Source of the DNA: a virus
Length of the DNA: 23,502 nucleotides
Reading direction: 5' to 3' (one strand)
IMG/VR virus record: IMGVR_UViG_3300028131_000043
Coordinates: 1-23,502 of that record
The notes beneath the pieces are model-generated. The model did no database searches and had not been told where the DNA came from. It saw nothing but the letters and a program-made list of their open reading frames with translations. Made by a program: the position numbers and the translations under genes. This document shows, one piece after another, positions 3,419-20,612 of the stretch. Every line of letters begins with the position of its first letter. Positions within the stretch are counted from its first letter, which is position 1.

Positions 3419-3645
3419 TGAGTAGTGTTGTAAGAAAAATCAGTATAGGATCTGATTACAAAAATGATGCAATGCACTATTCTATAGGACAGCAAGTGTA
3501 TGGCGGTCATGAAATATCTGATATTCTTCTTGACGAGAAAGATAGTTCTTACAACATCTATATAAAAAAGGGTGAAGAAGTGCTACCTTGGAAAAAGTTT
3601 AATAGCAATATGGCTATTTCAGTTGAGTACGATTTACAGTATTAA
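3418..3645 (+). CDS. Small beta-rich hypothetical protein
   Basis: 75 residues, not assigned to a named family. It starts SSVVRKISIGSDYKNDAMHY, followed by a strand-rich stretch (IGQQVYGGHEISDIL, SSYNIYIKKGEEVLPWKKF), and ends SVEYDLQY. Alternating strands with little helix suggest a small beta-barrel or sandwich. It is joined at both ends by one-base stop/start overlaps (TAATG), so it is made together with the coiled-coil protein before it and the Cpn10-like protein after it. I recall similar small proteins in marine phages next to the packaging genes, always as hypothetical. Confidence 0.65.
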   Translation: MSSVVRKISIGSDYKNDAMHYSIGQQVYGGHEISDILLDEKDSSYNIYIKKGEEVLPWKKFNSNMAISVEYDLQY

Positions 3646-4241
3646 TGAAAAGTATTCACGATTTTATCGTAAAACCCATAGAGGGTCGATACAATAATAC
3701 TGTAAAGGTTAATGAGGTTGATCTCATAGTTAACACAAGAATTGAAGAGTTTAAAAGTGTAAGTAAAGTTGCTGAAGTAGTAGCTTTGCCATTAGCTATA
3801 AATACTAAAATAAAAGTTGGGGATAAAGTCATAGTACACCACAACGTATTCAGAAGATTCTATGACATTAGAGGCAACGAAAAAAACAGTAGAAGTTTTA
3901 TTAAAGAAGATATGTATGCTTGCTCACCTGAGCAGATTTATATGTATGGAGCAAATAAGACTAATCTTGATTATTGTTTTGTAAAACCTTTAGTAAGCCA
4001 CGACATTTTTTCTTTAGATAAAGAAAAGCCACTTGTTGGAATATTAAAGTATGGAAACAAAGGGTTAGCCAATGTAGGGATAAATGAAGAGGATTTAGTA
4101 TCTTTTAGACCAGAGTCAGAGTTTGAGTTTATCATTGATGGCGAACTATTATATTGTATGAAATTAAATAACATTGTTGCGAAACATGAACGTAAAGGAA
4201 ACGAAGAAGAATATAATCCAAGCTGGGCAAAGAGCAGTTGA
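3645..4241 (+). CDS. Double Cpn10 (GroES)-like co-chaperonin
   Basis: 198 residues that read as two Cpn10-like barrels in tandem. The first spans ~4-102. IHDFIVKP mirrors the GroES opening RPLHDRVIVKR, AEVVALP mirrors GEVLAVG, IKVGDKVIVHH mirrors VKVGDIVIF, and YACSPEQIYMY occupies the place of the closing strand. The second spans ~108-180. It opens with DYCFVKP, then VGILKYGN, EEDLVSFRPESEFEFIIDGE and LLYCMKLNNIVAKHE, close to the GroES ending EEVLIMSESDILAIVEA. L27-I28-V29 lie where GroES carries its GroEL-binding mobile-loop triplet (IVL, 25-27). Its likely role is to cap host GroEL during folding of a virion protein, as T4 gp31 does for its capsid protein. The match is by eye. Its 3' end overlaps the next gene by 56 bases, and it is the only gene here ending in TGA. 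Confidence 0.62.
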   Translation: MKSIHDFIVKPIEGRYNNTVKVNEVDLIVNTRIEEFKSVSKVAEVVALPLAINTKIKVGDKVIVHHNVFRRFYDIRGNEKNSRSFIKEDMYACSPEQIYMYGANKTNLDYCFVKPLVSHDIFSLDKEKPLVGILKYGNKGLANVGINEEDLVSFRPESEFEFIIDGELLYCMKLNNIVAKHERKGNEEEYNPSWAKSS

Positions 4242-4471: not shown

Positions 4472-6685
4472 ATGTACGAACAAACACTATATAAAGTTCT
4501 AGATAACTATATAAAGGCATCTACTATAAAAAAGAAAAACAGGCATAGGACCTGGAAGTATGGTTATGATGAAGACCATGACATGGTCATTATAAGTAAA
4601 ACGGGTAAGATAGGAGCGATTTATGAAATACAAAATCTTAAGATAGCCTTACCTGCTGAGTTTGAAACTCATAACTTTAAAGACAAGAAGTGGTCTCACA
4701 CAGAGTACCCTAAAGAATTAAATAGAATAAAAACAATCTTTGATTGGAAGGAGTACCCTGAAGATTTTAAAGAAAAATGGTACGATTATATTGAGAAAGA
4801 ATTTGAAAGAAGAGAACAGGGATTTTGGTTTAATAATAAGGGTAATCCTACTTACATTACTGGCACTCATTATATGTACTTGCAATGGTCAAAAATTGAT
4901 GTTGGGCCGCCCGATTTTAGAGAATCAAACAGGTTATTCTATATATTCTGGGAAGCCTGCAAAGCGGACCATAGAGCCTTTGGGATGTGTTACCTTAAGA
5001 ATAGACGGAGTGGATTCTCCTTTATGTCTTCAGGAGAGACAGTTAACCTTGCCACAATATCAGTTGATTCCAGATATGGAATACTTTCAAAGTCAGGGCC
5101 TGATGCAAAAAAGATGTTTACCGACAAGGTTGTACCAATCTCGGTTAACTACCCGTTTTTCTTTAAACCCATACAAGATGGTATGGATAGACCAAAAACA
5201 GAACTTGCATATAGGATACCTGCTTCAAAACTTACAAGAAGGAAACTTGATGCTAATGAAAACCCAGAGGATCTCAAAGGGCTGGATACTACGATTGACT
5301 GGAAAAATACAGGTGACAACTCCTATGATGGAGAAAAACTAAAGTTACTTGTACATGATGAATCAGGCAAATGGGAGAAGCCTAATAACATACTAAATAA
5401 TTGGCGGGTTACAAAGACTTGTCTTAGATTAGGTAGTAGAATTATTGGTAAGTGTATGATGGGTTCAACATCAAACGCGCTAGATAAAGGAGGAGATAAT
5501 TTTAAAAAATTATATTATGCATCAGACGTCACGAGGAGAAACAGCAATGGACAGACTGCTTCAGGATTATATTCTTTGTTCATACCTATGGAATGGAACT
5601 ACGAAGGATACATTGATTCTTATGGACTACCTGTATTCGATACACCAGAAGAGCCAGTAGAAGATCCTTATGGGATGCCAATTAAGCAAGGAGTTGTTGA
5701 GTTCTGGGATAATGAAGTTGCAGGTTTAAAAGATGATCAAGACGGGTTAAATGAATTTTATAGGCAGTTTCCGAGAACGGAACAACACGCTTTTAGAGAC
5801 GAAGCAAAAGAATCTTTATTTAATCTAACAAAAATATATCAGCAGATAGATCACAACGAATCTATGGCGGCAAGCACTCTTGTTACAAGAGGTAACTTCC
5901 AATGGGAGAATGGTATTAAAGATACTAAAGTGATGTTTATGCCAAACAAAGACGGGAGGTTTTATGTTTCATGGATACCACCAATTAGTTTGCAGAATAG
6001 AATTATATCTAAGCACGGAACGAATTACCCAGGCAACGAACACTTAGGGGCATTTGGATGTGATAGTTATGATATATCAGGAACAGTAGACAGCAGAGGT
6101 TCTAATGGTGCTTTACATGGGCTAACGAAGTTTAGCATGGAAGAAGCTCCAGCTAACCATTTCTTTTTAGAATACATTGCTAGGCCGCAAACAGCGGAAA
6201 TGTTTTTTGAAGATGTATTAATGGCATGCGTGTTTTATGGTATGCCAATACTAGCAGAGAATAATAAACCTAGATTATTATATCACTTTAAAAATAGAGG
6301 TTATAGAGGGTATTCAATGAATAGGCCAGATAAAGCATATAATAAGTTGTCTGTTACAGAAAGAGAAATAGGTGGGATACCCAACTCAAGTCAAGATATA
6401 ATGCAAGCACATGCTGCTGCAATAGAAACATATATAGAGGAACTTGTTGGAATTTTAGGTGATGATGAAATGGGGGATGTTTACTTTCAAAGAACATTAG
6501 AAGATTGGGCAAGATTTAATATAAACAATAGAACGAAGCATGATGCTTCTATTAGTTCCGGTCTGGCTATTATGGCTTGTAACAGAAACCGTTACGCGCC
6601 GGTAAACAAAGTAGTAAGAAAAAATATAAATCTAGGAATGAAGAGATACGACAATTCTGGGAATTATTCAAAAATAATAAATTAA
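4472..6685 (+). CDS. terL: Terminase large subunit (packaging ATPase/nuclease)
   Basis: 737 residues from ATG 4472 (MYEQTLYKVL), two bases after the upstream stop. An in-frame ATG at 4394 lies deep inside the previous gene and is unlikely. The ATPase domain has a deviant Walker A, NRRSGFS (R178-S183), Walker B LLVHDE (292-297 with catalytic E297) and a coupling motif GSTSN (331-335). The RNase H-like nuclease domain has D531 in FGCDSYD, E596 in ILAENN and D691 in KHDASISSG. The protein cuts concatemeric DNA and pumps it into the procapsid, docking on the portal encoded directly downstream with no gap. Length and motif style match crAss-like and related podovirus terminases. Confidence 0.92.
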   Translation: MYEQTLYKVLDNYIKASTIKKKNRHRTWKYGYDEDHDMVIISKTGKIGAIYEIQNLKIALPAEFETHNFKDKKWSHTEYPKELNRIKTIFDWKEYPEDFKEKWYDYIEKEFERREQGFWFNNKGNPTYITGTHYMYLQWSKIDVGPPDFRESNRLFYIFWEACKADHRAFGMCYLKNRRSGFSFMSSGETVNLATISVDSRYGILSKSGPDAKKMFTDKVVPISVNYPFFFKPIQDGMDRPKTELAYRIPASKLTRRKLDANENPEDLKGLDTTIDWKNTGDNSYDGEKLKLLVHDESGKWEKPNNILNNWRVTKTCLRLGSRIIGKCMMGSTSNALDKGGDNFKKLYYASDVTRRNSNGQTASGLYSLFIPMEWNYEGYIDSYGLPVFDTPEEPVEDPYGMPIKQGVVEFWDNEVAGLKDDQDGLNEFYRQFPRTEQHAFRDEAKESLFNLTKIYQQIDHNESMAASTLVTRGNFQWENGIKDTKVMFMPNKDGRFYVSWIPPISLQNRIISKHGTNYPGNEHLGAFGCDSYDISGTVDSRGSNGALHGLTKFSMEEAPANHFFLEYIARPQTAEMFFEDVLMACVFYGMPILAENNKPRLLYHFKNRGYRGYSMNRPDKAYNKLSVTEREIGGIPNSSQDIMQAHAAAIETYIEELVGILGDDEMGDVYFQRTLEDWARFNINNRTKHDASISSGLAIMACNRNRYAPVNKVVRKNINLGMKRYDNSGNYSKIIN

Positions 6686-13876: not shown

Positions 13877-15055
13877 ATGCCAAATCCAAATGGTGGCTTA
13901 ATCACCGAAACTAATTCACAATACTACGCTGGGCAGCAGACTTTTACAGGTACTGGAGCTCAGTCAGACTTTGTTTGCACATTTAATACTGATTTAATTG
14001 CAACTATTCCAGGGGTTTCTAATACAAATTTTTCTGTAACACTTAGCGGAATTGTTGTAACTAATTATCAATTAGTAGGAAATGATACTATAAGATTTTC
14101 AGCCGAGACACCTCCAGATGAATTACCTCCTAATGGGTCTTCTATAGTTGTAAGCCTTATTGAGACTGCAAAAGAAAGTAACTATGGAGGTTATCAATAC
14201 ACATCGTTAAATGATGTTATCAATAACTTTATGGTTGCTTACATTGGAGCAGGTAAGCTTATCCCAAGTGCTAAGAGAACTGATATAATATTTCACGCAA
14301 AACGTGGGATGCAAGAGTTTAGTTACGATACACTAAAAACAATTAAGTCACAAGAACTAACCATATCTCCAAGTCTAACAGCAGTTATACCACAAGACTA
14401 TGTAAACTACGTTAGATTATCTTGGATTGATGCGTTAGGTGTAAAAAGAATTATATATCCAAATACAAACGTTACAATAAACCCAGCAGAAGCTCCTGAG
14501 CAAGACTCAACAGGCCAGATACTTCAAGATAACCTAGAAGAAAACATAGATACAGATCCACCACAAACAGTAGAAAGATGGAGAGAGGCTGACACCAAAA
14601 AGATAACAGGACTTTACAATGCAGATTCTTTGAATGAGGGATATGATATAGGCGACGAATATGTTGGAAATATTTATTGGGGCGCTGCGTATGGGCAGAG
14701 ATATGGGGAAGACCCTGCACTAACTCAAACAAACGGGTGGTTCGGTATAGATGAAGTAAGAGGAGTATTTACATTCTCAAGTAATTTAAAAGATCGTTTG
14801 ATCGTCATAGAGTACATCTCAGACGGCCTAGCGTACGATTTGGATACTAGGGTCCCTAAAATGATAGAAGACGCCATGTACGCCCATATAAGCCATGCGA
14901 TCATTTCTACACGCATTAATCAGCCAGAATATATTGTTCAGCGACTAAAGAGAGAAAGAAGTGCTAAGCTAAGGAATGCAAAAATAAGATTATCTAATAT
15001 TAAGATAGAAGAGCTTACTCAGCTTATGAGAGGCAAATCTAAATGGATAAAATAA
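13877..15055 (+). CDS. Ring/connector (tail tube) protein 2 with extra N-terminal domain
   Basis: 392 residues. The conserved core starts near residue 102 (YGGYQYTSLNDVINNFMVAY, GKLIPSAKRTDIIFHAKRGM, QEFSYDTLKTIKSQELTI) and continues through IPQDYVNYVRLSWID and EVRGVFTFSSNLKDRLIVIE to a helical, basic C-terminus (RLKRERSAKLRNAKIRLSN). Before the core is a beta-rich domain of ~95 residues (QQTFTGTGAQSDFVCTF, NFSVTLSGIVVTNYQ, NGSSIVVSLI) of the kind seen in phage head-appendage or adhesin proteins. The core should form a portal-adjacent ring; the extra domain probably faces outward. It lies six bases after ring protein 1. Confidence 0.75.
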   Translation: MPNPNGGLITETNSQYYAGQQTFTGTGAQSDFVCTFNTDLIATIPGVSNTNFSVTLSGIVVTNYQLVGNDTIRFSAETPPDELPPNGSSIVVSLIETAKESNYGGYQYTSLNDVINNFMVAYIGAGKLIPSAKRTDIIFHAKRGMQEFSYDTLKTIKSQELTISPSLTAVIPQDYVNYVRLSWIDALGVKRIIYPNTNVTINPAEAPEQDSTGQILQDNLEENIDTDPPQTVERWREADTKKITGLYNADSLNEGYDIGDEYVGNIYWGAAYGQRYGEDPALTQTNGWFGIDEVRGVFTFSSNLKDRLIVIEYISDGLAYDLDTRVPKMIEDAMYAHISHAIISTRINQPEYIVQRLKRERSAKLRNAKIRLSNIKIEELTQLMRGKSKWIK

Positions 15056-15061
15056 TATAAT

Positions 15062-18000
15062 ATGCCAGAAATTAAAAATATATTTGTTGGGGCTAAGATG
15101 AACAAAGATCTTAACCCAAGAATGATTTCAAATAAAGAATATATAGATGCAAGAAACGCAGCAGTAATAAATTCTGAAGGTAGTGATTCTGGCTTGCTCC
15201 AAAATGTTAGTGGCAATTCAGAATTAACAGATTTTGATTTAGTAGGAACTAATTTAGAAATTATAGGATTTTTTATAGACACCACTAGTAATAGAATATT
15301 TGCTTTTATAACAGATTGGAATGATGTGTCTAATGACCTACTATCTAACTTTGCTTCTGCAAATTCTCACCATTATATATGTGTATTTGACACAAGAACG
15401 AATATAGGCACAACTTTAGTTAGTGGCAGCTTTTTAAATTTTTCTAAATCGCATCCAGTTGTAGGAATTAATTTGCTTGAAGATTTATTGTTTTTTACAG
15501 ACAATAGGAATCAACCAAGAAAAATAAATATAAAAACCGCCCTTGCTAATACAAATTACTACTCTAAAGAGGAGCATGTGTCTGTTGCAAAATATTACCC
15601 TTATGAACCTCCACGTCTTGTAAAAGATAGAGGGGATGGTAGTCTATTAGTAAACAGCATATTTAGTATTACAACAAATGTTACTGGTATAGCCGATGGG
15701 ACATATACAACGGGCACTTTCACGGTTGCCCCGGCAGGAGGCTCTGGCGCTGAATTTGAAATAATAGCGGCAGGGAACCTAGTTACTACTATTAGAGCAG
15801 TTACTGCCACTACTTCTGAAAAATACTATGTTGGAGCAAACTTTTCTATAGGTGATGCAATAACCATACCAAGTGGCACATTAACAGGCCAAGTGGGCAA
15901 TTTAGTTTTTGTAGTTAAGGATGAAAACATAGCAAAAGAGGGGACAATGAAAGACGTTGTTTCTGAAAATCTTGTAGCATCAATAACGTCTACAGTAAAT
16001 TCTGTTACTGGCTCACCAACAACTTCTTTAGATGTGCCAAATGGTATTAATCCAAATTATGTTGGCGCAACTATAACACAAAATACAATAGGAGCTACTG
16101 AGCAGGTTACAATATCTAGTATAACAACTGCCGCCACTGATACAATTACGATAAATAACCCAAATTTAGTAACGTTTACTACAGACGACATAGTCATAGG
16201 CGCAAACCCATATTATAATCCAAGCTTTGATGGAGACTCTAACTTTTTATCAGACAAATTTGCTAGATTTAGTTATAGATTTAAATATGACGACGGAGAA
16301 TATTCATTAATTGCACCATTCTCTCAGATTGCATTTATACCAAAGCAAGACGGATATTTTTTAGAAAGCAGTATTCCAATAAATGTTAATGATGATACAG
16401 CTCTTTCTGATGAAAACGAAGCTATAAAAAGTACTATAATCAGTTTTTTTGAAAACAAAGTTAATTCACTTGAGCTTATTATAAATATGCCAGAGGGAAT
16501 TAGCGCTGTTAAAGATATAATAAATGATTTAAAGGTTTCTGAAATAGATATACTTTACAAACAATCTGACCAAAATATAATAAAGGTTATAGATACCATT
16601 GCTAGAGACGCTATTTCAACTAATTCTTCTTCAAAATTATCATATACATATAATTCTCAGCTACCCATAAAAACATTACCATCTAATGAAACCACAAGAG
16701 CTTCTGACAAAGTGCCTATTAAAGCAAAAGCACAAGAGATAGCTGGTAATAGGGTTATGTATGGTAATTATTTGGTAAGGACCGCTAGGCCAACCTCACT
16801 AGATTACTCTATATCTTCAGGTGAGAAGTCAGAGTTAGGCCAGCTAAATTCAGTTAATGAAATAGAGTACCCCAACAGTATATTAAAACAAAATAGATCA
16901 TACAAAGTTGGTATAGTTTTGGCTGATAAATTTGGCAGGCAATCCGATGTAATAACGTCAACAAATTCAACAGTGTATACGCCATACATTGGGCAAAATC
17001 CTGATTATATAATTAATCCAAATGGGGCAACTACTCCACGAACATTAGGGCAGGTATACAAAGGGGATTCATTGAAAATAAATTTCTTATCAGAAATACC
17101 TGAAACAATAACATCGGTTGGTTATGCTGGGCTTTATAGCGAAACAAACCCGACTGGCTGGTATAGTTATAAAATTGTAGTACAGCAAAGAGAGCAAGAG
17201 TATTACAATGTATATCTTCCTACAATTTTAAATAATAACCCACAAGACTCCGCGGGCGTAACCTCTACTAGCACCGCTTTTATAACATTATTTTCCGATA
17301 ATATAAATAAAGTGCCAAGAGATTTAAAAGAGGTTGGCCCATTAGACATGCAGTTTTCAAGCTCTGTTGAATTATACCCAAGAATATCAAACTCAACATT
17401 TGAAACAAGCGAAGCAACAACACAGCAAATAAGTGCTAGTAGAACACCAGATAAAGTTATATCTATTGGGACTAGAGATGATTTAGGATTAGATGTTACT
17501 TTAGCAGGAGCTGATTATAATACATCACCATTTTATAGTATACCGTTAGCCCCAGACGCTGGCACTGCTACTAACAATAGAGTTGTTAACTTAGGGTCAA
17601 ACCCATACATTGGCAGTATTGCAACAGAAAAAGAAATTGGAGCTGTAGGAGGAGATGCTACAACGGTAACATTTGAAAATGTAAGGCTTAATGTTTATGA
17701 AACGGAAGCCGTTGAATCCGCATTAGATATATATTACGAAACAAGTTCCTCTGGATTAATATCCGAATTAAATACAGACGTTAAAAATAGTCTTTCAGGC
17801 TTAGTTCCTTATGAAATATCTGACTGGACATTTGTTTTAAAAGAAAATTACAATTCTAACCAAGCCATTAGTACAGTGCCTTTTGATGTTTTAAATGCGT
17901 CAGGCGTATCATTAACATCTTTATATGGAACCAATGTAAGCGTTGAAATACTTTCTGTTTTTGATGGTAGCGACACAGATGTTACTAGCAAGAATTTATT

Positions 18001-18883
18001 TAAAGTTGTTCAGCTAATGTCAAATAGATTTGAATTAAGAACAGGGGACTTTAGCGACAATTTTGTTTATCTTTCACCAGCAGATGCTTATCTAATAAAT
18101 TTTAAATTAATTAATATCAATGCGGGCATTGAGTATACCTCTACTTACTCTATATCTTCAAATGTAAATAAGCTTGAAAATTTACCTGTTACAGAATCTA
18201 CTGGAGCTAGCGTTGAAACCGCAGCTGCTGATTATGCAACTCAACTTAGAATCCCCATCACTTTTCGGGATTTTTTTGGTAACTTAATTACCCGGCGTTT
18301 TCGTATTGTAAATCCAACATACAAAATAATAAACTGGAACGGCGCCAACGTTTTTGTCCCGCCACAATCTGGGCCAGGATGGGTAAAATTGCAAGACTTC
18401 CAGTTTAACAATGGGGCGTTTAATAGTGCTTTCCAAGATGAAGGGCTTAGTATTTCTATTGATAACCGGATTGACCGTAATGACGGTCCTGCAATACTTA
18501 ACTTCCCAGATATAATTACCCCCAATATTAGAATATCATTAACATTTATGCAGGAGGCGCTAGGTGTTGTCGCTCCAAGCTTTCTTGATACAGCTAGAGA
18601 TTATAGTGATAAAATTAGGTTAAGAAAAGTTATTGAATCTGGTGTTATTAAATATAGACTAGAATACTCCTCCCTACTAAGACCATATAATGAAAATGCT
18701 AAATCATACCAAGCTATCTACGTAGAGCCACCAGTAGGAGTACGCCAGGTGCCATTTGAAGTATTTCTTAGCGTTTCTGATGCAAATGGATTAGCTGGTT
18801 CATTGGGTATGGCTACAGCAGACATAGATGATAGCGTAAGATCTTTATTTAAATACAAATTTTATTTAAGCGATTTAGTTTAA
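15062..18883 (+). CDS. Tail stabilisation / muzzle-like protein, N-terminal part
   Basis: 1273 residues. The opening (EIKNIFVGAKMNKDLNPRMI, then ISNKEYIDARNAAVINSEGS and SGLLQNVSGN) is the signature of the large stabilisation proteins of crAss-like and other marine phages. Beta-rich repeats follow, including FTDNRNQPRKINIKTAL, and a Gly/Thr module at about 198-286 (GTYTTGTFTVAPAGGSGAEF, FSIGDAITIPSG). A second beta part has FARFSYRFKYDDGEYSLIAP. Such proteins close the tail channel beneath the rings (muzzle of phi-crAss001). Comparable proteins elsewhere continue with the sequence found in the next gene, so this looks like the front part of a split protein. Its stop at 18881-18883 is a plain TAA, with no slippery site visible. 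Confidence 0.78.
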   Translation: MPEIKNIFVGAKMNKDLNPRMISNKEYIDARNAAVINSEGSDSGLLQNVSGNSELTDFDLVGTNLEIIGFFIDTTSNRIFAFITDWNDVSNDLLSNFASANSHHYICVFDTRTNIGTTLVSGSFLNFSKSHPVVGINLLEDLLFFTDNRNQPRKINIKTALANTNYYSKEEHVSVAKYYPYEPPRLVKDRGDGSLLVNSIFSITTNVTGIADGTYTTGTFTVAPAGGSGAEFEIIAAGNLVTTIRAVTATTSEKYYVGANFSIGDAITIPSGTLTGQVGNLVFVVKDENIAKEGTMKDVVSENLVASITSTVNSVTGSPTTSLDVPNGINPNYVGATITQNTIGATEQVTISSITTAATDTITINNPNLVTFTTDDIVIGANPYYNPSFDGDSNFLSDKFARFSYRFKYDDGEYSLIAPFSQIAFIPKQDGYFLESSIPINVNDDTALSDENEAIKSTIISFFENKVNSLELIINMPEGISAVKDIINDLKVSEIDILYKQSDQNIIKVIDTIARDAISTNSSSKLSYTYNSQLPIKTLPSNETTRASDKVPIKAKAQEIAGNRVMYGNYLVRTARPTSLDYSISSGEKSELGQLNSVNEIEYPNSILKQNRSYKVGIVLADKFGRQSDVITSTNSTVYTPYIGQNPDYIINPNGATTPRTLGQVYKGDSLKINFLSEIPETITSVGYAGLYSETNPTGWYSYKIVVQQREQEYYNVYLPTILNNNPQDSAGVTSTSTAFITLFSDNINKVPRDLKEVGPLDMQFSSSVELYPRISNSTFETSEATTQQISASRTPDKVISIGTRDDLGLDVTLAGADYNTSPFYSIPLAPDAGTATNNRVVNLGSNPYIGSIATEKEIGAVGGDATTVTFENVRLNVYETEAVESALDIYYETSSSGLISELNTDVKNSLSGLVPYEISDWTFVLKENYNSNQAISTVPFDVLNASGVSLTSLYGTNVSVEILSVFDGSDTDVTSKNLFKVVQLMSNRFELRTGDFSDNFVYLSPADAYLINFKLININAGIEYTSTYSISSNVNKLENLPVTESTGASVETAAADYATQLRIPITFRDFFGNLITRRFRIVNPTYKIINWNGANVFVPPQSGPGWVKLQDFQFNNGAFNSAFQDEGLSISIDNRIDRNDGPAILNFPDIITPNIRISLTFMQEALGVVAPSFLDTARDYSDKIRLRKVIESGVIKYRLEYSSLLRPYNENAKSYQAIYVEPPVGVRQVPFEVFLSVSDANGLAGSLGMATADIDDSVRSLFKYKFYLSDLV

Positions 18884-18917
18884 TTAAATATAAAATATAC
18901 TGTTTAAAAAATAAATA

Positions 18918-20612
18918 ATGCCGTTAACAAAAGAAATAACATATTTTAATTCTTTCTTGGCCAAAAAAGTGGTTGAAGATAATGGGTCTAGTGAAGCTGG
19001 AAAAGCTACCTGGCCCGCATTGCCTTGGAACCCTACTGGGTACCCTACATTCCCCCTTTTAGCTGACGCCACACACAATGCTTATAATTGGTACATAGAA
19101 GAAGCTAGAATACGGGGTGGTTATAATAACACGACTGTAGACTTCGGAGCTAAAGCATTTATAACAGAGTCAGAGGATACAGAACTTATTCTTGGCAATG
19201 GTATTATATACTCTGGTCTATATAACTCAAGAACCGGGTTTAACGAAACAAATGTTTTTTCTACAGGAGAAAACATAACAAAAGAGGTTGATCCTAGATA
19301 TGGCAACATACAAAAATTATATACAACAGATACGAACTTAATAATCTTTCAAGAAGATAAAGTGAGTAACATGCTGGTAGACAAAGATGCAATTTATACG
19401 GCTGATGGCAACGCGGCCCTTACAGCATCTCAACTTGTTTTAGGGCAGGTAAATCAATACACCGGGGAGTATGGTATAAGTGATAACCCAGAATCATTTG
19501 CATTTAAGGGTTATAGAATGTATTTTTCTGACAAGAACAGAGGAGCAATAATGAGACTTTCAAGAGATGGAATTACTGAAATAAGTGCATATGGCATGAG
19601 AGATTTTTTTCGTGACACTCTTGCTAACATTTCTGAGCAGTTCCAAACAAAAGAGATTGTGCTTTCGCTTCCTGGTTCGCTAGAGCCTCAGCCCGTAATT
19701 CCTGGAACCCAAATAAATTTTAATGATTCTGAGTTTAATACTTTTAGTGAATTAGAATACGGTATGGAAGTTGTTGCTGGGGCTTTTGAGCCAAATGGTT
19801 TGTATGTTATTGATATAAATACAAATAGCAGACTTGTTACATTTAATGGAACTATTACATCAATAACCCCGTTTGGGAATGTAACATTTTATAAGCCGGT
19901 TAAGGACAAAATTGTTGGGGCATACGACAATTACTATGATACTTATGTTGTGTCAATGCAACAATCAGATTTATCTACATATAATACCTTATCATTTAAT
20001 GAAAGCAATAACGGGTGGAGCAGCTTTTGGGATTACGATCCTGCTTTTGGGGGCACATTAGATAATATTTATTATACAACAAAAGGTGGTTCTATATGGA
20101 AACATTACGATGAAAGTGTGATTAATAATAGAGGAACTTTCTATGGAGTATCATATTCCACTTCTGTTACATTATCTTTTAACCCGATGGTGTCTATCTC
20201 TAAAAACTTTAACACTGTAAACTACGAAGGCACAAATGGGTGGCAAGCAGATTTCTTTTTATCAGATCCAACAGGCAAGCTATTATTGGATTCACAAAGG
20301 AATGATTATAAAGACGAGGCATCGTCAGTAAGAAGCTACGAAGAAGGTGCATATGTAGAAGCGGGAGTTACTTATCGAGTTGGATTTAATATAAAAGAAA
20401 ACAAATATATGGCTAACTTAGTAAATAATGGCGTACAAGTAAATGGAAATGACAACATCCAATTTGGTATGCCTGGACAAGTAGCATCAAATATAAGTAT
20501 GAGTGGTATAAAAGGATTCTATGCTACAGTTAAATTAAGTACAGATAACACAACAGATCTTGGTGGATTTAAAAACTTATTTGCAGTGTCATCAAATTTT
20601 GTAAAATCATAA
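18918..20612 (+). CDS. Tail stabilisation / muzzle-like protein, C-terminal part
   Basis: 564 residues. It carries the second half of the stabilisation-protein signature: NWYIEEARIRGGYNNTTVDF, LIIFQEDKVSNMLVDKDAIY, GEYGISDNPESFAFKGYRMY, FSDKNRGAIMRLSRDGITEI and SAYGMRDFFRD. The remaining 300 residues are beta-rich (FKPVKDK-type strands, WSSFWDYDPAFGG, VSISKNFNTVNYEGTNGW). A clean ATG with a Shine-Dalgarno-free leader (TTTAAAAAATAAATA) and a different frame from the previous gene show that it starts on its own. It should assemble with the upstream protein at the tail tip. Splitting may be real in this lineage or reflect a frameshift or stop introduced in the assembly; the intact leader favours the first. 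Confidence 0.78.
   Translation: MPLTKEITYFNSFLAKKVVEDNGSSEAGKATWPALPWNPTGYPTFPLLADATHNAYNWYIEEARIRGGYNNTTVDFGAKAFITESEDTELILGNGIIYSGLYNSRTGFNETNVFSTGENITKEVDPRYGNIQKLYTTDTNLIIFQEDKVSNMLVDKDAIYTADGNAALTASQLVLGQVNQYTGEYGISDNPESFAFKGYRMYFSDKNRGAIMRLSRDGITEISAYGMRDFFRDTLANISEQFQTKEIVLSLPGSLEPQPVIPGTQINFNDSEFNTFSELEYGMEVVAGAFEPNGLYVIDINTNSRLVTFNGTITSITPFGNVTFYKPVKDKIVGAYDNYYDTYVVSMQQSDLSTYNTLSFNESNNGWSSFWDYDPAFGGTLDNIYYTTKGGSIWKHYDESVINNRGTFYGVSYSTSVTLSFNPMVSISKNFNTVNYEGTNGWQADFFLSDPTGKLLLDSQRNDYKDEASSVRSYEEGAYVEAGVTYRVGFNIKENKYMANLVNNGVQVNGNDNIQFGMPGQVASNISMSGIKGFYATVKLSTDNTTDLGGFKNLFAVSSNFVKS

Follow-up and report, generated by a model that had tools for sequence, protein, structure and literature searches.

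Among the hallmark proteins of crAss-like phages is the muzzle, which is believed to act as a gate for ejection. The muzzle of phi-crAss001, gp44 (PDB 7QOL, 7QOK; Pfam PF25731, PF25729), is one chain of 1371 aa, encoded next to other virion genes. In an excerpt of the structure paper (PMC10172136), Ig1 of gp44 is placed between blades 2 and 3 of the propeller, Ig2 spans residues 318-1021 and is inserted into blade 3, and the gate loop is located in blade 4. Of the six Crassvirales records that we examined, five have a single-chain muzzle of 1340-2031 aa; in the sixth one (Bohxovirus, L365), the muzzle region is annotated as short fragmentary ORFs only, and a reassigned stop codon may be the reason.

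A muzzle spread over two genes can be found in the Cellulophaga phages phi18:3 and phi19:3, where the C-terminal domain is a separate gene of 241 aa. Both phi18:3 products, gp114 and gp115, carry the record annotation 'experimental MS/MS proteomics analysis', thus, according to this annotation, a two-gene muzzle reaches virions in at least one isolate. Among the open-licence PMC papers, where the relevant matches included the structure paper, a review and articles on the nozzles of other phages, we found no description of a split or two-gene muzzle, and the excerpts of the structure paper (PMC10172136), a review (PMC10136315) and a flavophage paper (PMC8776804) make no mention of a split muzzle. 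Here, we analyze a virus record of 23,502 bases (the whole stretch, called the window below) in which two adjacent genes correspond to the two ends of this protein.

Two adjacent genes match the front and the back of the crassvirus muzzle

The window carries the large terminase, the portal and a structural gene block, in this order. A gene for a GroES-like co-chaperonin (3645-4241) is located immediately upstream of the large terminase. The two genes discussed here, both on the plus strand, are named A (15062-18883) and B (18918-20612). Gene A is preceded by a gene of a virion structural protein (13877-15055, plus strand; phrog_13977, 1.2e-43), and, judging by the ORF order, a similar-sized ORF is present upstream of A also in relatives. 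The product of A, an ORF of 1273 aa, begins with MPEIKNIFVGAKMNKDLNPRMI, and its N-terminal signature FVGAKMNKDLNPRMI (15083-15127, plus strand) aligns with the QGKMNKDLDERL-type starts of single-chain relatives. Next comes a 34-nt A/T-rich leader (18884-18917, plus strand), of the kind that precedes most genes in the window, and then the ORF of B, which encodes 564 aa and is shifted to frame +1 with respect to A. A TAA located two codons upstream of the B ATG closes the B frame, so no product can enter from A in that frame. The N-terminal strand of B, EITYFNSFLAKKV (18933-18971), is the conserved start of the second chain, and its counterpart in single chains is a strand of the LxLDYFNSF type. 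The WYIEEARIRGGYNN motif (19089-19130) corresponds to GNGVESNRIRDGFN of single chains, the YGISDNPESFAFKGYR motif (19470-19517) belongs to the B propeller, and the crAss_MUZ_C domain (PF25729) occupies positions 20127-20420 (E 1.4e-7, 32.3 bits, curated cut-off 27), all on the plus strand. These coordinates agree with the first-pass annotation, which had placed an N-terminal signature in the first gene and a C-terminal one in the second, in different frames and 34 bases apart; the A-rich leader that it gave to the second gene is the A/T-rich stretch described above.

Both products match the same PHROG family, each at a different end. Residues 4-189 of A match positions 1-182 of the phrog_14478 profile (1.5e-52), while B matches positions 934-1097 of 1474 (1.1e-45), which places the two-gene feature far beyond chance. 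Alignment of both genes to a single-chain homologue had been proposed as a check, and it gave a collinear cover with zero overlap. By using hhalign and a profile of single-chain relatives, A 1-754 was aligned to residues 1-604 of the single chain of contig L269 (E 1.8e-67), and B 60-441 to residues 1355-1646 (E 2.5e-70).

The main crAss_MUZ model (PF25731) gave no match in A or B at E 0.01. Since the single-chain phi38:1 relative was also unmatched, at E 1, it seems that this model does not reach into this branch. The N-terminal propeller of A is linked to gp44 by a weak profile match through single chains (hhalign probability 58%), and phmmer against PDB sequences returned nothing for A and only two weak antibody matches for B. 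What B shares with gp44 is PF25729 and the fold. A protein of the gp44 type is a single polypeptide and A/B are two ORFs; A and B thus belong to the muzzles as a split variant and are set apart from the single-chain proteins of the gp44 type.

The break lies at the return of the chain to the propeller

We assessed the structure of B by AlphaFold modeling of this chain alone, with an alignment of 93 rows. The mean pLDDT was 76, residues 1-120 being mostly poor and residues 121-564 mostly confident; a poor model of the first 120 residues is what one would expect if the B N-terminus packs on A. The best PDB match of the model was the phi-crAss001 muzzle (Foldseek, 7e-12), and a second aligner superposed B 85-563 on gp44 1024-1371 with Z 15.6 and an rmsd of 3.8 over 317 aligned residues. 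The next different proteins were GP4 (Z 12.1) and P22 gp10 (Z 10.5), and a T7 chain was also present among the Foldseek matches. The nozzle proteins of P22 (gp10), GP4, SU10 and T7 (gp12) have the propeller fold in common with B. Those of P22, GP4 and SU10 are single chains and are not known to have the Ig and crass insertions. The T7 nozzle is likewise described as a single chain without these insertions in the excerpt of PMC10172136.

As the match of B starts at gp44 residue 1024, and Ig2 of gp44 ends at residue 1021 according to the same excerpt, the break is located where the chain re-enters the beta-propeller from the Ig2/crass insertion. The start of B, EITYFNSF, is the LxLDYFNSF strand found directly before the GNGVES motif of single chains, and a variable insert separates the EITYFNSF strand from WYIEEARIRGGYNN. 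With the domain names transferred from gp44 (PMC10172136, excerpt), A is expected to supply blades 1-2, the first part of blade 3, Ig1, Ig2 and the crass-type tip regions. B is expected to supply the rest of blade 3, blades 4-7 including the gate blade, and the C-terminal domain.

With respect to the crass-fold tip, the middle of A was too diverged, and in a partial model from a relative the C-terminus of A resembled cadherin-like domains. This model was a read-through fold of the C-terminal part of A together with B from contig L231 (1200 residues), which was too poor at the A/B junction to show how the chains close (pLDDT below 50 over residues 731-928, pTM 0.45); the two cadherin-like domains at the A end (Z up to 9.6) fall within model residues 508-732. 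The predicted tandem pair makes up the last ~230 residues of L231 A and could be a free, host-facing extension. When the C-terminal 550 residues of 46 A proteins were compared with Pfam, there were three weak single matches and no named domain in common.

Conservation and probable single origin of the split

In the first scan, 10 relatives with 49-88% identity were recovered, and the split was identical in 10/10. The larger scans of viral contigs each covered the best 80 of more than 570 relatives, so their totals are lower bounds. In the split-type scan (best 80 of >570), the ORF table shows the B start in 79 of the 80 loci, with a few codons of the listed ORF preceding it in L094; in L084, it lies inside a longer ORF. 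After merging identical regions we were left with 302 distinct regions and at least 127 distinct B loci, the latter drawn from the window, L007-L016, L021-L100 and L181-L260, with the split loci of one further scan left out. L043, L063 and L247 missed the motif filter and are outside the 127, and the B start is the same in L043 and L063.

Among the matches listed, B begins with a start of its own, of the M...YFNSF type and at the same place, in each of the 127 distinct loci. A full-length, uncut A is found within 60 nt upstream of B in 112 of them; A is cut by the contig end in 7, and 8 are irregular. Five irregular loci have an additional ORF (136-296 aa) inserted between the two genes (L042 5827-6306, L075 5552-6226, L083 5911-6321, L209 5211-5960 and L214 5073-5963), none of which resembles A. 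Pfam gave weak nucleotidyltransferase-type matches, below the cut-off, for the extra genes of L042 and L083 and no match for those of L075, L209 and L214. By eye, and as an impression only, the extra genes of L209 and L214 look like phage fibre or head-decoration proteins. In the other irregular loci, A is truncated by a break further upstream (L195), A ends in another frame (L031), or the gap is 235 nt long (L238). Purifying selection acts on both genes, dN/dS between the window and L007 being 0.12 in A and 0.07 in B.

The conserved region was used as a profile against 362 sources and was matched in 361, the crAss001 stretch remaining below the threshold. The length of the ORF part that precedes this region was bimodal, with fewer than 200 residues in 184 sources, more than 450 in 177, and no source in between. 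Three of the 184 short-lead cases are not real splits: L280, where the contig ends, and L318 and L355, which are single chains with a frameshift. In an unrooted tree of 121 representatives, all split rows (34/34) fell into one clade (SH-aLRT 95), corresponding to one change. The split clade stayed intact in the presence of five single-chain Crassvirales outgroup rows (four gut, one marine isolate), and its sister then consisted of 32 L269-type rows (31 single-chain, one frameshifted), with a support of 98 for the union of the two; both support values come from a quick search, with the outgroup on long branches. About 54 further single-chain rows, as well as all five outgroup rows, were placed outside the split and sister clades. 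Such a clade, nested among single-chain relatives, indicates an old, clade-wide, derived fission.

The first-pass annotation had proposed that the protein was divided in this lineage. Its core is upheld, since one ancestral chain is now two genes, with a collinear cover of L269 and no frameshift artefact; the division is, however, not confined to this virus but extends over a whole clade of IMG/VR contigs. As the contrary case it had named homologues that are separate genes throughout the family, and this is what we see inside the clade (34/34 rows), whereas the wider family has single chains as a rule. The single-chain environmental muzzles (phi38:1 gp97, elemoviruses and the L269-type contigs) are homologous over both A and B and differ in being one chain, of 1289 to >3000 aa, instead of two; the chain length of 1,800-2,000 residues given for relatives in the first-pass annotation was therefore too narrow (about 1,290 to >3,000 aa).

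The break in phi18:3 (gp114 and gp115) and phi19:3 resembles A/B in that the muzzle extends over two adjacent genes, but it is further C-terminal, with only the crAss_MUZ_C part being separate, and it belongs to a different tree lineage. Lone crAss_MUZ_C genes representing this more C-terminal split are present in lineages other than the split clade, namely in L003 (8104-8829) and, beside other environmental single-type loci, in 7 of 8 downstream ORFs tested (those of L121, L132, L120, L117, L103, L118 and L110). Together, the phi18:3-type and A/B breaks indicate that the muzzle can be divided at more than one position. Maribacter phage Panino (L002, ~6240-6400) was considered as a second natural split and rejected, as it shows a frame break with homology continuous across it; its muzzle is annotated as two genes, and the record may hold a frameshift. 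A crAss-like structural block, with capsid-family and muzzle homologues, was also present on large scaffolds of Aquimarina longa (L274) and Aquimarina algiphila (L277), which suggests an integrated or carried crAss-like relative in these two genomes.

A proposed two-chain muzzle and its alternatives

We propose that A and B are the halves of a crassvirus-type muzzle which underwent one ancient fission at the return from Ig2/crass to the propeller, and that they most likely come together in a two-chain protomer; we give this reading a probability of roughly 0.8. Each half would be translated from its own start inside the structural gene block, and A and B would pair as the two-chain protomer of a hexameric muzzle at the tail tip. 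In such a protomer, A would contribute the Ig-like and host-facing tip domains together with blades 1-2 and the beginning of blade 3, and B the remaining propeller with the gate loop and the C-terminal domain at the ring-side end, the beta-propeller being closed in trans by both. Homology, collinearity, the breakpoint, conservation across the clade, the single derived origin and selection come from the comparisons above, and from these we infer co-assembly, its stoichiometry and the closure in trans. Assembly of the halves in the virion, also put forward in the first-pass annotation, is helped by a precedent at another breakpoint, phi18:3 gp114 and gp115.

Simpler origins of two ORFs may be considered. 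Sequencing or assembly frameshifts that break one gene do exist among relatives (Panino, L318 and L355), where homology continues in the other frame without a start of its own. In the 127 B loci, however, the break falls at the same protein position in every case, with variable spacing, three frames, intergenic DNA and, in five loci, an inserted ORF, while low dN/dS is kept in both genes (window vs L007); the chance of such an artefact is close to nil. Alternatively, programmed frameshifting or read-through of the stop could join the two ORFs into one product, and some relatives do have A and B in a single frame, separated by nothing but TAA codons. Against this, the A-B spacing ranges from -1 to 58 nt (median 32) in 124 of 127 loci, the frame offsets of B vs A among these 124 are divided 57/36/31, and in 116 of 127 the frame of B is interrupted at the A end or beyond it. 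With variable spacing and all frames used, no fixed recoding signal fits, and, given also the conserved own start of B, we find recoding extremely improbable.

The direction of the change and the fate of the halves leave room for two other readings. An unrooted tree alone cannot separate gain from loss, so the two-gene state could be ancestral and single chains could be later fusions. Yet single-chain rows stand on both sides of the split clade, in its sister group, among the ~54 further rows and in all five outgroup rows, which makes later fusion very unlikely; most simply, the split is derived, old and of single origin. The halves might also have parted functionally, one still serving at the tail tip and the other having a different role or place. 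The length of A, which varies between 922 and 1847 aa, and the high variability of its C-terminal half would be compatible with such parting. On the other hand, A holds the N-terminal propeller signature and B the remainder, neither alone should form seven blades, and the A-B adjacency is kept in nearly all loci. We therefore consider functional parting improbable and favor two halves that assemble into one muzzle.

A more specific version of the two-chain protomer can be put forward only tentatively, and we think it rather unlikely. The gate could be an obligate two-chain one, in which the propeller and the last Ig2 strand are completed in trans by the B N-terminus, and host contact made by A, the tip chain, could pass to B, the gate chain, via strand exchange or A release. 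If true, this would be a triggering route closed to a single-chain muzzle.

The natural, conserved break parts the host-facing tip from the gate-bearing propeller, and it thereby offers a ready two-component system in which to study the opening of the gate upon tip contact. For annotators, it means that many environmental phages may have a muzzle that is overlooked or named only in part, and the split muzzle can be used as a clade marker. In comparison to gp44 of phi-crAss001, the chain is encoded here by two genes with the break near the end of Ig2. Thus, it can be said that A and B represent a conserved natural two-chain form of a known phage gate, and not a new kind of system.
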